Origin: Methanocaldococcus fervens AG86 | Lineage (GTDB): Archaea > AGJL01 > Methanococci > Methanococcales > Methanocaldococcaceae | Assembly (NCBI RefSeq): GCF_000023985.1 | Contig: NC_013156.1 | Location: 186,001-250,000 of the forward strand | Reading direction: 5' to 3' | Length of the DNA: 64,000 nt | Shown here: positions 44,294 to 52,239 of the stretch, piece by piece | Numbering within the stretch: position 1 is the stretch's first letter | Layout: each line of letters opens with the position of its first letter | The notes under the pieces: model-generated | Database searches by the model: none | Told to the model about the DNA's origin: nothing | The model's input: only the letters and a program-made list of their open reading frames with translations | Made by a program: the position numbers and the translations under genes

Positions 44294-46267
44294 ATGTCCC
44301 CAAGAGTTGGGGTATTTGTCTGTTACTGTGGAGCAAACATCAACGGTGTTGTTGATTGTGAAGCAGTGAGAGATTTTGCTGAAAAGCTAGATGGAGTAGT
44401 TGTAGCTAAAACCTATCCTTTTATGTGTGCTGACCCAGGACAAAACTTGATTAAAGAGGCAATAAAAGAATACAACCTCGATAGAGTTGTTGTCGCTGCA
44501 TGTACACCAAAAATTCACGAACCTACTTTTAGAAACTGTATAAAAGAAGCAGGGTTATCTCCATACTACTTGGAGTTCGTTAACATTAGAGAACACTGTT
44601 CTTTTGTTCACATGAATGAGCCAGAAAAGGCAACCAAAAAAGCAATGGAATTGGTTGCAGGAGCTGTTGAAAGAGCTAAAAGATTAGAAGATGTTCCACA
44701 AAAAATTGTAGATGTTGATAAATCTTGTTTAATTATTGGAGGAGGTATTGCTGGAATTCAGGCAGCTCTTGATTTAGGAGACCAAGGTTATAAAGTATAT
44801 TTAGTTGAGAAGGAGCCATCAATTGGAGGAAGAATGGCTCAGCTTGCTAAGACATTCCCAACTGACGATTGTGCTATGTGAATTTTGGCTCCAAAGATGG
44901 TTAGCGTTGCAAACCACCCCAATGTTGAGCTCATAACCTATGCCGAAGTTAAAAATGTTGAAGGATACATTGGAAACTTTGAAGTTACAATTGAAAAGAA
45001 ACCAAGATATGTTGATGAAGATGTCTGTACCGGATGTGGGGCTTGTGCCGCTGTATGTCCAATTGAAGTGCCAAACGAGTTTGACTTGGGTTTAGGTACA
45101 AGAAAAGCTATTTACGTTCCATTCCCACAGGCAGTTCCTTTAATCTACACAATCGATATGGAGCACTGTATAAGATGTGGACTATGTGAAAAAGCTTGTG
45201 GTCCAGGAGCTATAAGATATGATCAAAAACCTGAAGAAATCAAATTAAAAGTAGGAACTATCATCTGTGCAGTTGGTTACGACGAATTTGATGCTACATT
45301 GAAAGAAGAGTATGGATATGGAGTTTATGATAACGTCATAACCACATTAGAATTAGAGAGAATGATCAACCCAGCAGGGCCAACAGGAGGACACGAAATA
45401 AGACCAAGTGACGGAAAGCATCCTCACAGAGTTGTGTTCATCCAGTGTGTTGGTTCAAGGGATGCAAAAGTCGGAAAGCCATACTGTTCAAGAATCTGCT
45501 GTATGTTCGCTTTGAAGAATGCTCAGTTAATTAAGCAGCACGACCCAAGCACCGAAGTATATATCTGCTACATGGATATCAGAGCGTTTGGTAAGGGATA
45601 TGAGGAGTATTACAGAAGAGCTCAAGAGCAGTTTGGTGTTAAGTTTATCAGAGGAAGACCAGCTTGTGTAATGGAAGATCCAGAAACAAAGAACTTAATT
45701 GTTAGAGTAGAAGATACATTACTTGGAGAAATCGTAGAGATTGAAGCAGATTTAGTTGTATTGTCAGCTGGTTTATCAGCAAGACCAGAGAATCCAAAAT
45801 TGGCTAAGATGCTCGGTTTAGAATTAAGCCCAGATGGATTCTTCAAAGAGTTGCATCCAAAGTTAGCTCCAGTTAATACAAAAGTTGATGGTATAGCAAT
45901 TGCTGGAGTTGCTCAAGGACCTAAGGATATTCCAGATACTGTAGCTCAAGCTAAAGGGGCTGCAAGTGCTGTAGCAATACCAATGGCACAGGGAGAATTC
46001 AGAATTGAAATGATTAGGGCTGTTGTTGATGAAGATGTCTGTGGAGGATGTCAAGTTTGTGCTAAGATGTGTCCATACAACGCTATAAGCTATGTTGAAA
46101 AAGATGGGCACTTAGTAGCTCAAGTCAATGACGTTGCTTGTAAAGGATGTGGTGCATGTGCTGGAGCATGTCCAAGTGGAGCAATGCAGTTAAGATACTA
46201 TAGAGATGAGCAAATCATCTCGTTTATTGATGGAGTATTAGAAGCTCACCAAAAATTAGAAAGCTAA
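44294..46267 (+). CDS. hdrA: Heterodisulfide reductase subunit A, selenoprotein (Sec196)
   Basis: Flavin electron-bifurcating subunit of the Hdr/Vhu complex. The frame reads through one in-frame TGA (44879-44881) in DDCAM-U-ILAPKM, where other HdrA proteins have Cys, giving 657 aa. FAD fold: [20 protein letters not shown]. Four [4Fe-4S] motifs: [36 protein letters not shown] and [12 protein letters not shown]. The start has GGAGGTGA upstream. The SECIS is in the 3' UTR (46413-46444), 1.5 kb from the UGA. Nucleotides 44917-44945 are complementary to the UTR at 46365-46393. Confidence 0.96.
44917..44945 (+). promoter_or_regulatory. hdrA 5' arm of the CDS-3' UTR helix
   Basis: CCCCAATGTTGAGCTC followed by ATAACCTATGCCG in the coding sequence, starting 35 nt after the UGA. 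It pairs with 46365-46393 over 29 consecutive positions, 27 Watson-Crick and 2 G.U. Confidence 0.8.
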
Positions 46268-46364
46268 GCTAAAAACTCAAGCACAAGCCCCACATCCAAC
46301 TTATCAGAAATTATCTTAATCCTAAAATTAAACAAATATCAAATAAAGCTAAGAACTAAAAATA

Positions 46365-46393
46365 TGGCGTAGGTTATGAGCTCAACATTGGGG
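46365..46393 (+). promoter_or_regulatory. hdrA 3' arm of the CDS-3' UTR helix
   Basis: Reverse complement of hdrA codons just after the UGA. It begins 97 nt after the stop codon and ends 19 nt before the SECIS. A local alternative exists: ATGGC at 46364-46368 and TAGG at 46370-46373 can pair with CTTAGCCAT at 46463-46471. Confidence 0.8.
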
Positions 46394-46412
46394 GCAGAAA
46401 AAGCCAGATGAG

Positions 46413-46444
46413 GCATCACCCGAAGGCACTTGCCAGGGTGGTGC
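46413..46444 (+). promoter_or_regulatory. SECIS element of hdrA
   Basis: Archaeal SECIS fold: lower stem GCATCACCC/GGGTGGTGC, the conserved GAA facing a single A, a 3-bp GGC/GCC helix and loop ACTT. A GGGC/GCCC hairpin (46452-46463) follows. Confidence 0.92.
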
Positions 46445-46540
46445 TGATGGGGGGCAGGCGCCCTTAGCCATTTTATTGTAACTTTCATAATCTTCACCAA
46501 ATATAAATTAAATTGCTACAATAAACTTTGAGGGATTAAT

Positions 46541-46945
46541 ATGGAACCAGTAATAATCGCTTTCTGCTGTTATCAATGAGGTTATGGGGCTGCTGACTTA
46601 GCAGGGACAAGTAGAATGCAATACCCTGCAACCGTAAGAGTCGTCAGGCTCCCTTGCACTGGTAAATTTGATGTTACCTATGCTTTAAGAGCTTTCCAAA
46701 AGGGAGCCGACGCGGTTATGGTTGTAGGGTGAAAGAAAGGAGAATGCGCTTACGAAACAGGTAACTTGAAGGCTGAGGAGAGGGTTAGGTTCGCTAAACA
46801 ATTATTAGATGAATTGGGAATCGGCGGAGACAGAATTGAAATGTACTTCATGACAGCTGCTGAAGCTGATAAGTTTGTCTCCGCCGTTAATGAAATGACC
46901 GAAAAACTCCAAAAACTCGGACCTAACCCTCTCAAAGCTCAGTAA
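46541..46945 (+). CDS. vhuD: F420-non-reducing hydrogenase subunit D, selenoprotein with two Sec (Sec13, Sec64)
   Basis: 134-aa electron-transfer subunit that links the Vhu hydrogenase to HdrA through a [2Fe-2S] centre. The frame contains two in-frame TGA codons: 46577-46579 (CCYQ-U-GYGAADLAG) and 46730-46732 (VVG-U-KKGECAY). Both positions are Cys in the MvhD homolog, so both are read as Sec. GAGGGATTAAT precedes the ATG. SECIS at 46967-47000. Codons in two blocks are unusually GC-rich because they form long helices (46624-46654 with 46701-46729; 46773-46793 with 46918-46942). No single open frame covers the gene, so it is easily missed. Confidence 0.94.
46624..46729 (+). promoter_or_regulatory. 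vhuD helix I, between the two UGA codons
   Basis: 5' arm 46624-46654 pairs with 3' arm 46701-46729: 14 bp (CCCTGCAACCGTAA with TTATGGTTGTAGGG, two G.U), an internal loop, then 4 and 8 bp (AGGCTCCCT region with AGGGAGCC). The 5' arm starts 44 nt after UGA13 and the 3' arm ends on the base before UGA64. Confidence 0.7.
46773..46942 (+). promoter_or_regulatory. vhuD helix II, from after UGA64 to the stop codon
   Basis: 46778-46793 pairs with 46918-46933 over 16 bp (one U.G), and CTGAG 46773-46777 pairs with CTCAG 46938-46942 across a 4-nt bulge. A nested 13-bp helix (46822-46834 with 46874-46886, core CGGCGGAGAC) lies inside. The 5' arm begins 40 nt after UGA64 and the 3' arm ends at the last sense codon. 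Confidence 0.75.
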
Positions 46946-46966: not shown

Positions 46967-47000
46967 GTTCTCTCGGGAACCCGTAAGGGACCGAGAGGAC
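46967..47000 (+). promoter_or_regulatory. SECIS element of vhuD
   Basis: Lower stem GTTCTCTCGG/CCGAGAGGAC (10 bp), GAA facing A, CCC/GGG helix, GTAA loop. An outer stem GCCGGAGA/TCTCCGGC (46947-46954 with 47022-47029) encloses it together with a CCCC-ATGTGA-GGGG hairpin (47007-47020), making a three-way junction. Confidence 0.93.
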
Positions 47001-49324: not shown

Positions 49325-49477
49325 ATGGCTGAAAAGAGCACAGTCAAAGTTGATGAAGTAAAGTTAAACCTAATTGAAGTTGTATTAAGAGCTTACGACC
49401 CTTGATACTCATGTGCTGCCCACATAATAGTTAAAGATGAGAAAGGAAACAAAATTATAGAGGTTGTCAGGGAATAA
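49325..49477 (+). CDS. vhuU: F420-non-reducing hydrogenase selenopeptide subunit U (Sec27)
   Basis: 50-aa precursor that provides the C-terminal nickel ligands of the large subunit. Motif DP-U-YSCAAH with Sec from TGA 49403-49405. In hydrogenase maturation the peptide is cut after this His, so the tail IIVKDEKGNKIIEVVRE would be removed. GGTGATGAG lies before the ATG. The SECIS overlaps the last base of the stop codon, only 71 nt from the UGA. Confidence 0.95.
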
Positions 49478-49513
49478 GCTCACAACCGAACCCAGTTTGG
49501 GAGGTTGTGAGCT
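49477..49513 (+). promoter_or_regulatory. SECIS element of vhuU
   Basis: Lower stem AGCTCACAACC/GGTTGTGAGCT (11 bp), GAA facing A, CCC/GGG helix, loop AGTTT. A CCCCC-ATGCA-GGGGG hairpin follows (49519-49533), similar to the one behind the vhuD SECIS. Confidence 0.94.
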
Positions 49514-50786: not shown

Positions 50787-52094
50787 ATGGTAAAAGTTAT
50801 TAGGAATGTAGTTTGCCCATTCTGTGGGACATTATGTGATGATTTAGAGATTTTAGTTGAAAATAACCACATAGTTGGAACAAGACATGCTTGTAGAATT
50901 GGAAACGCAAAGTTCATGCACTTTGAAGGAGCGGTTAGATATACTGAACCTTTAATGAGAGAGAATAAGAAAGATGATTTCAAAAAAGTTGATTATGAAA
51001 CAGCAATTGAAGAGACAGCAAGATTATTAACCGAAGCTTCATTACCTCTAATCTACGGATGGAGTGCTACTGAATGCCATGCACACATGTATGGGATTGA
51101 GTTGGCTGAGCTCGTTGGGGCAGTTATTGACAACACCGCAAGTGTTTGACACGGGCCTTCTGTCTTGGCTTTGCAGGATGTAGGATACCCCGTCTGTACT
51201 TTAGGAGAAGTCAAAAACAGAGCTGACGTTATAATATACTGGGGTTCAAACCCAATGCACGCCCACCCAAGGCATATGAGTAGATATACAACATTCGCAA
51301 GAGGTTTCTTCAGGGAGAGGGGTAGAGAAGATAGAACTTTAATTGTTGTCGATCCAAGAGAGACCGATACCGCAAAATTGGCTGATATTCACTTGCAAGT
51401 TGAACCTCACAAGGATTATGAGTTAATTAGTGCGATGAGGGCTGTATTAAAAGGCTTCGAATTACAAGTAGATAAAGTTGCTGGAGTTCCAGCAGAGTTG
51501 ATATATGAGGCAGTAGATATTTGTAAAAACGCTCAGTTTGGAGAATTGTTCTTCGCTATGGGAATGACAATGACAAGAGGTAAGCACAGAAACATCGACA
51601 ACGCTATCCAGTTTGTTATTGATTTAAACGCATACACAAAATTCACACTAACACCAATGAGAGGACACTACAACGTTAATGGATTCAACCAGGTATGTAC
51701 ATGGGTTACAGGTTATCCATTTGCAGTTGACTTCTCAAGAGGTTATCCAAGATACAACCCAGGAGAAACATCAGCTAACGACTTACTGCAGAGAGGAGAA
51801 ACCGACATGATGTTAAACATAGCTTCAGACCCTGGAGCACACTTCCCACAAAAGGCAGTTCAGCACATGGCAAAGATACCATTAGTTTGTATAGATCCAC
51901 ACGAAACACCAACAACACAGTTGGCAAATATCATTATCCCTCCAGCAATTGCTGGAGTTGAGGTTGAGGGAACTGCTTATAGAATGGATGGAGTCCCAAT
52001 TAAGTTGAAAAAGGTTATCGACCCACCAGAAGGAGTCTTACCAGACAGAGAGATATTGAAGATACTCATTAAGAAAGTTAAAGAGATGATGTAA
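50787..52094 (+). CDS. fwuB: Tungsten formylmethanofuran dehydrogenase subunit B, selenoprotein (Sec121)
   Basis: Catalytic subunit (435 aa) of the enzyme that fixes CO2 onto methanofuran in the first step of methanogenesis. The frame crosses TGA 51147-51149 in NTASV-U-HGPS, where Sec replaces the Cys ligand of the tungsten. N-terminal cluster [14 protein letters not shown]...C; later molybdopterin contacts [19 protein letters not shown] lies before the ATG. SECIS at 52204-52239, about 1.05 kb away. Nucleotides 51172-51192 are complementary to the 3' UTR at 52172-52192. Confidence 0.95.
51172..51192 (+). promoter_or_regulatory. fwuB 5' arm of the CDS-3' UTR helix
   Basis: GCAGGATGTAGGATACCCC (51173-51191) plus one wobble base each side, starting 22 nt after the UGA. 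The reverse complement is present exactly at 52173-52191. Confidence 0.8.
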
Positions 52095-52171
52095 AAACTC
52101 TAATGAGAAAATTATAAATATTGGCCGATACTTAATAAATTACGGGGTGGGCGTGCAACGCTAACCATCTT

Positions 52172-52192
52172 TGGGGTATCCTACATCCTGCG
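52172..52192 (+). promoter_or_regulatory. fwuB 3' arm of the CDS-3' UTR helix
   Basis: GGGGTATCCTACATCCTGC, an exact 19-nt reverse complement of codons downstream of the UGA, flanked by G.U at both ends (21 bp). It ends 11 nt before the SECIS. Local pairing of CGTGCAACGC (52152-52161) with GCGTTACACG (52190-52199) would show most of this arm in a loop. Confidence 0.8.
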
Positions 52193-52203
52193 TTACACGT
52201 CGT

Positions 52204-52239
52204 ATGTTGGAGGGGAACCCGTAAGGGACCCTCCAACAT
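52204..52239 (+). promoter_or_regulatory. SECIS element of fwuB
   Basis: Lower stem ATGTTGGAGGG/CCCTCCAACAT (11 bp), GAA facing A, CCC/GGG helix, GTAA loop. The apical part is identical to that of vhuD. Confidence 0.94.

Follow-up and report, generated by a model that had tools for sequence, protein, structure and literature searches.

A conserved long-range helix in fwuB of Methanocaldococcus and a candidate guide-tethered SECIS module that also addresses hdrA

How does a SECIS in a 3' UTR communicate with a selenocysteine (Sec) UGA about a thousand nucleotides upstream? The question is raised by fwuB in the window analyzed here (the whole 64-kb stretch of Methanocaldococcus fervens DNA), where UGA and SECIS are about 1,057-1,060 nt apart in linear sequence. 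The original prediction had pointed to a complement between codons behind this UGA and the UTR next to the SECIS. It did not note that fwuB has a further helix, that this UTR also contains a guide directed at hdrA, or that three genomes carry unlinked copies of the module. The elements of the locus are:

50787-52094, plus strand: fwuB, Sec-containing formylmethanofuran dehydrogenase subunit B, 435 codons including the UGA (open reading frame read with TGA=U)
51147-51149, plus strand: in-frame Sec UGA of fwuB, from the sequence and aligned to Cys in fwdB paralogues
51172-51192, plus strand: fwuB ORF arm 1 (UGA+23..+43), partner 52172-52192; based on pairing, covariation and synonymous-site conservation
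51256-51268, plus strand: fwuB ORF arm 2 (UGA+107..+119), partner 52145-52157, 13 bp
52145-52157, plus strand: UTR guide 2, pairing over 13 bp with fwuB ORF arm 2 (UGA+107..+119)
52172-52192, plus strand: UTR guide 1, for fwuB UGA+23..+43; based on pairing, shuffles and covariation
52204-52239, plus strand: fwuB SECIS with GAA/A kink-turn-like motif and a T-rich tract behind it (generic SECIS model, E = 3.0e-6)

The fwuB helix in the window

Positions 51173-51191 (GCAGGATGTAGGATACCCC) and 52173-52191 (GGGGTATCCTACATCCTGC) are exact reverse complements over 19 nt, as predicted, and one G.U pair at each end extends the helix to 21 bp (51172-51192/52172-52192). Within the 64 kb, even with up to three mismatches allowed, the 19-nt arm sequence occurs nowhere except at its two sites (chance expectation 0.01). 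The helix score of 50 compares with 19.2 +/- 2.9 after dinucleotide shuffling of the UTR (100 shuffles, none as high; z = 10.6). When the whole mRNA of 1.47 kb is folded in silico, the mean pair probability is at least 0.977 at 37, 65 and 85 C and the SECIS stays intact; in whole-mRNA ensemble folding at 85 C the corresponding helices of fwuB, hdrA and vhuD reach 0.98, 0.94 and 0.82, respectively. The second helix, between ORF arm 2 and guide 2, is kept in Methanocaldococcus, including genomes G012 and G002, with only 10 bp in G008.

The SECIS itself follows the archaeal plan of a stem, a GAA (52215-52217) opposite an A (52228), a G-C-rich upper stem and a small loop, with a T-rich, unpaired 3' flank. 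It thus shares the GAA/A kink-turn-like loop between two stems and the 3' UTR location with canonical archaeal elements, which differ in that they are thought to act in cis without a strict distance rule (PMC9622424), guides or trans action not being described for them.

With the helix formed, the SECIS is attached at the UGA-proximal end of the duplex and the backbone path from the UGA shrinks to about 33 nt in the window. Among fwuB-type genes in general, the helix lies 21-31 nt from the UGA and 10-41 nt from the SECIS, giving a path of 31-70 nt instead of about 1,030 nt linear; for hdrA the path is 41-54 nt instead of about 1,470 nt. These tethered distances are in the range of genes needing no helix, i.e., 72 nt in vhuU (this analysis) and 88 nt in fruA of M. 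maripaludis (PMC9622424). The bacterial arrangement, a hairpin in the ORF immediately past the UGA, does not apply to a SECIS some 1,057 nt away, which becomes comparable only once tethered.

Conservation and the same design in other selenogenes

Genes and modules were inventoried by model searches across 36 Methanococcales genomes (a search at the phylum level gave the identical 36 and no Methanopyrus), including the genome of the window (1,507,251 bp in two contigs). Orthologues of fwuB are present in 34 of the 36. Those having a UGA and a SECIS carry the helix at about UGA+22..+49; it measures 14-26 bp in the thermophilic genera, and most mesophilic ones have 9-11 bp at that site. Scores in most thermophiles are 31-66 against nulls near 19, with z up to 20; the mesophile helices are short (z 1.3-3.6).

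Covariation, named in the original prediction as a check to make, is pronounced. Both sides changed in 60 cells (shuffled mean 19), the covariation score is 0.331 versus 0.142 +/- 0.012 (0/500), and 83.9% of the cells are paired in register versus 31-43% with the register slid. Changes on both sides affect 11 of 22 pairs, and at UGA+30 all four of U-A, C-G, G-C and A-U are seen. Even substitutions that change the amino acid (GAT to GAG, GTA to ATA) are compensated in the UTR arm. Synonymous codon identity within the fwuB arm is 0.81 among Sec genes versus 0.50 among Cys genes, compared with 0.63 versus 0.51 outside the arm. The complement is a real, conserved long-range helix.

The presence of the UTR arm beside Cys-encoding fwdB genes had been named as an observation that would speak against the helix. 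The helix is absent from all nine ordinary Cys fwdB genes and from 13 of 13 Cys hdrA paralogues, with shuffle-like z values of -1.8 to 1.8. Both checks named in the original prediction thus speak for it. The only Cys genes with an arm are locus L022 (G018) and the tandem Cys copy in L043 (G033). Each of them retains a SECIS and is closely related to Sec genes, so that a recent replacement of Sec by Cys seems to lie behind them. L043 contains a tandem Cys/Sec pair of fwuB-type genes.

The prediction that placement rather than sequence is shared was borne out, as fmdB-like paralogues, hdrA and selD pair via unrelated sequences at UGA+7..+70. In the window, all three selenogenes with a distant UGA contain a helix: hdrA one of 28 nt with a nested one of 17 nt, vhuD one of 16 nt, and fwuB those of 19 and 13 nt. 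The hdrA and vhuD elements are:

44879-44881, plus strand: Sec UGA of hdrA
44917-44944, plus strand: hdrA ORF arm 1 (from UGA+36), partner 46366-46393; 28 nt, 96% complementary, z = 19
45032-45048, plus strand: hdrA ORF arm 2 (UGA+151..+167), partner 46281-46297, 17 bp exact
46281-46297, plus strand: hdrA UTR arm 2, partner of hdrA ORF arm 2
46366-46393, plus strand: hdrA UTR arm 1, directly 5' of the hdrA SECIS (46404-46450)
46778-46793, plus strand: vhuD ORF arm (second UGA +46..+61), partner 46918-46933; 16 nt, 94%, kept in other genomes
46918-46933, plus strand: vhuD 3' arm, inside the last codons, about 30 nt 5' of the vhuD SECIS (GAACCC core near 46975-46994)

The spacing originally given for fwuB, 22 nt from UGA to arm and 11 nt from arm to SECIS, is correct, and the statement that it repeats hdrA is approximate: in hdrA, 35 nt precede the helix and about 18 nt follow it (10 nt to the Rfam flpD match). 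The hdrA arms slide among lineages, from UGA+26 to +70, yet remain. The fmdB-like paralogues L046-L049 have an unrelated helix of 17-19 bp at UGA+28..+46. Methanocaldococcus and Methanotorris-like genomes have a selD helix of 17-27 bp at UGA+7..+36; in other genera, this ORF segment pairs with the last selD codons, directly 5' of the SECIS. The published 5'-UTR pairing of fdhA was reproduced at UGA+26..+42 and +43..+53. Two hesB-like genes, L265 and L273 (G012, G035), form helices of 14-18 bp between UGA+33/37 and the last codons 5' of the SECIS; no such helix is present in the other hesB-like genes checked. Two Asgard hdrA loci gave no helix and no Sec example (L210 encodes Cys; L211 is without a match).

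No helix of this kind is present in vhuU, which has its own SECIS 72 nt from the UGA, and genes in which the UGA is already close to the SECIS (vhuU, fruA) do not need one. The SECIS of vhuU (49403-49513 of the window) overlaps the stop-codon region and constitutes a natural untethered control. The vhuD gene has two Sec UGAs (46577-46732 of the window) with a single tether past the second; only one UGA is left in G004, G009, G012 and G026.

A putative hdrA guide in the fwuB UTR and unlinked modules

When all SECIS flanks of the window's genome were compared with all UGA contexts, the matrix was diagonal with one strong exception, the fwuB UTR against hdrA. The segment TGCAACGCTAACCATCTTTGGGGT, located between the two fwuB-pairing arms, is the complement of codons just past the hdrA UGA:

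44888-44911, plus strand: hdrA ORF target of the fwuB-UTR guide (UGA+7..+30)
52154-52177, plus strand: hdrA guide in the fwuB UTR, complement of hdrA UGA+7..+30, 24 bp with wobbles

This match is unique in the 1.5-Mb genome at up to three mismatches. The guide is found in 12 of 12 Methanocaldococcaceae for which both sequences are available, pairing over 22-24 bp, with two compensated changes in G002 and one in G008; it is absent from the other genera examined. The guides for fwuB and hdrA overlap by a few bases, so that one module cannot occupy all targets fully at once. A local stem of 52150-52161 with 52189-52201 (GGCGUG.AACGC/GCGUU.CACGUC) could hold the guide region in a closed loop as long as it has no target. 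The conserved ACACGTC between guide 1 and the SECIS has no target in the selenogene loci of its own genome that were checked and can pair locally with GGCGUG, which would close a guide loop.

In three genomes (G002, G008 and G012), fwuB has no downstream SECIS, and all that is left of the hdrA SECIS is a small hairpin that lacks GAA/A. In each of them the module was located elsewhere by means of a covariance model. In G012 it lies at C1:315231-315332, flanked by two genes on the opposite strand and 447 kb from fwuB (C1:762768). In G008 the module is on contig C6, fwuB on C16 and hdrA on C12. The G002 copy lies behind a gene on the opposite strand and follows a ksgA-like gene, 4.8 kb away from the UGA of fwuB. 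All three unlinked modules retain the GAA/A SECIS, pair over 17-20 bp with fwuB and 23-24 bp with hdrA, and score 42-60 with these two genes versus 18-22 with the other selenogene contexts found (the fdhA context of G012 is not among these). The fwuB codon change GTA to TCA in G008 is matched by a change in the unlinked module. One feature of a trans-acting guide RNA, antisense segments that covary with their targets from unlinked loci, was thus found in G008, G012 and G002. Since fwuB and hdrA are single-copy genes carrying the UGA in each of these genomes, and belong to pathways that methanogens need, their UGA must be decoded there.

In the hdrA tree, G002 and G008 are sisters and G012 forms a separate, weakly placed branch, which suggests that the module moved more than once or became re-linked. 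The loss of the GAA/A loop from the hdrA 3' UTR concerns five loci (L062, L063, L065, L068 and L069 in G013, G007, G012, G002 and G008, respectively), where a hairpin flanked by AUGA...UGAU-like sequence is left and the hdrA long-range helix is also gone; these residual hairpins might retain some SECIS function. A fwuB module with the hdrA guide is present in G013, G012, G002 and G008 and was not found in the incomplete genome of G007. When the 36 genomes were searched with a generic SECIS model for further unlinked modules, the good hits among the unassigned matches inspected were fruA and hesB-like and the weak ones resembled chance. Rfam has no family for the fwuB module or its unlinked forms; the flpD RNA (RF01737) matches the hdrA SECIS only.

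Potential signals for separate transcription accompany the module in linked species and in the unlinked copies of G008 and G012. The element in the window is:

52112-52122, plus strand: element TTATAAATATT, resembling a TATA box and located some 22-31 nt 5' of the module, conserved in eight Methanocaldococcus fwuB UTRs with a diverged spacer to the module

It is a possible promoter of a separate RNA, which would start near GGGGUGGGCG of the module. In G008 a TATA-like box (TTTATATA) lies 25 nt 5' of the GGGG of the module and in G012 another (TATATATA) lies 22 nt 5' of it, each module having a T-rich tract behind. In species with a linked module, TATAAATATT is kept at a similar place in the fwuB UTR and the spacer that follows diverges; for this reason independent transcription is possible for the window's module as well, as far as TATA-like and T-rich sequences indicate. 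A free module can, according to the predicted fold, fold its guides into a loop.

We consider it probable (roughly 0.8) that the fwuB 3' UTR represents a guide-tethered SECIS module that also serves hdrA and is able to act in trans. Its best-surviving competitor, nonetheless improbable, is a tether acting in cis only. Here the helix would fix the SECIS close to a UGA on its own mRNA, or on a polycistronic hdrA-to-fwuB mRNA, and the hdrA complement and unlinked copies would be relics or serve some other purpose. In favor of this, the great majority of the helices are in cis, and hdrA and fwuB are co-directional and a few kb apart in the window. A module that reaches hdrA only inside one long transcript is possible in the window and not in G012, where the module is 447 kb from fwuB and has opposite-strand genes on both sides. 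Moreover, fresh compensatory changes in the unlinked modules are unexpected for relics, and this explanation leaves fwuB and hdrA without a canonical SECIS in three genomes.

Two further explanations, each slightly less credible again, separate pairing from SECIS delivery. The duplex may act alone by slowing the ribosome or protecting the mRNA, with the closeness of the SECIS being incidental. Structures past stop codons do stimulate readthrough in plant viruses (PMC3234231), and flanking duplexes altered mRNA abundance in a reporter (PMC11881835). However, the 3' partner always adjoins the SECIS and is lost together with it, vhuU with its nearby SECIS has no duplex, and the helix positions range from UGA+7 to +70, a wider spread than would be expected of a pausing element. 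Alternatively, the module could be an antisense regulator that raises or lowers translation of fwuB and hdrA, e.g., by selenium supply; pairing inside the coding sequence of these central Sec genes would suit such a role. Yet all copies, including the unlinked ones, keep the GAA/A SECIS, and the targets are exactly the two genes without a local SECIS in G002, G008 and G012. Although helices of 9-10 bp are common at random, chance or a compositional artefact is excluded for practical purposes by the shuffles, slid registers, Cys paralogues and whole-genome uniqueness test.

Proposed mechanism and relation to known systems

The guide-tethered module would consist of antisense guide segments followed by the SECIS. 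Guide 1 would pair with fwuB codons from 22 nt past the UGA and guide 2 about 85 nt further. With the UGA in the A site, the mRNA entry channel would not yet have reached the helix, and the SECIS and a putative binding factor would thereby be held beside the decoding ribosome. Docked just beyond the ribosome's leading edge, the SECIS-bound factor would meet the Sec-tRNA complex at high local concentration, and the moving ribosome would later unwind the guide helix. The third guide, between those for fwuB, would pair just past the hdrA UGA, and hence one SECIS could serve HdrA as well. As the local SECIS of both genes is gone and the module is unlinked in G002, G008 and G012, it must there be a trans-acting SECIS guide RNA if it is functional at all.

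Somewhat more cautiously, we regard it as likely that in Methanocaldococcus and close relatives a small natural RNA of about 110 nt acts in trans as a SECIS guide. Its antisense guides would bring the SECIS to the UGA of the essential selenoprotein mRNAs for FwuB and HdrA at least, so that a separate RNA gene would be responsible for recoding a stop codon. The helices, their covariation and specificity and the unlinked positions were computed here; we infer that the RNA is transcribed separately, base-pairs in vivo and brings about Sec insertion in trans.

Long helices would be needed at 80-90 C, which fits the longer pairing in hyperthermophiles noted for fdhA1. In M. maripaludis, a reporter without any designed tether is active when its 3'-UTR SECIS lies 520-679 nt away from the UGA (PMC9622424), and tethering flanks on a 5'-UTR SECIS left reporter activity unchanged but doubled the activity per mRNA (PMC11881835). 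A tether is therefore not strictly required, at least in a mesophile. Because distance alone is no block and tethering alters activity little in these reporters, the tether in cis probably improves rather than permits decoding; in trans, pairing would be needed to make the SECIS specific.

The prior art for a tethered SECIS is limited to the fdhA1 5'-UTR SECIS in Methanococcales, whose flanks are complementary to the ORF (Peiter et al., 2025; PMC11881835). The fdhA1 and fwuB elements share SECIS flanks that pair with codons shortly past the UGA and longer pairing in thermophiles. They differ in that fdhA1 has a 5'-UTR SECIS with both flanks paired, whereas the fwuB module is in the 3' UTR, has one-sided guides (its 5' flank pairs with UGA+23..+43) and belongs to a design of several gene families, with a cross-gene guide and unlinked copies in addition; the sections covered of that paper describe none of these. 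The cis helix extends the published fdhA1 case to 3'-UTR SECIS elements of several families, and the cis part alone is a variant of the fdhA1 kind. As expected of an archaeal SECIS, the module of the window lies in the UTR of a gene it serves, fwuB; with respect to its second target, hdrA, it does not, and in G002, G008 and G012 such a location applies to neither of the two genes.

Tombusviridae readthrough resembles the fwuB module in that a distant 3' RNA element pairs near the recoded stop codon, but is viral, without SECIS or Sec, and in cis only (PMC3234231). A literature search with partial coverage yielded no counterpart of the cross-gene guide and the unlinked modules, which are the main novelty. 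The nearest idea is the antisense tethering hypothesis of Taylor and co-workers, where a SECIS is likewise supplied in trans via antisense pairing near the UGA (PMC11510084). It concerns viral capture of a host SECIS, viral and human mRNAs and single-site complementarity, whereas the module here is cellular and dedicated, with evidence from covariation and from unlinked genomic positions.

Archaeal C/D and H/ACA sRNAs, which direct RNA modification, similarly combine a protein-binding structural core with an antisense guide; unlike the proposed module they do not recode codons in translation. If the unlinked modules work, the meaning of a codon would be set by a guide RNA encoded elsewhere, for which we know of no natural precedent. 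The system would then be programmable, as a change of guide should redirect Sec insertion.

A base-paired tether offers a physical answer, in archaea, to how a distant 3'-UTR SECIS communicates with the UGA, and would explain why the SECIS may sit in the 5' UTR, the 3' UTR or elsewhere. No SECIS-binding protein is known in archaea (PMC11881835). Guide pairing also provides a sequence signature by which selenoprotein genes seemingly without a SECIS may be annotated.

Four fmdB-like genes (L050, L052, L053 and L054 in G020, G023, G029 and G015, respectively) contain an in-frame UGA at the Sec/Cys position; neither a SECIS in the surrounding several kb nor a pairing guide was found for them. Four fdhA genes (L152, L156, L158 and L170 in G011, G005, G004 and G017, respectively) carry one extra in-frame TAA or TAG in addition to the Sec UGA and are possibly decaying.
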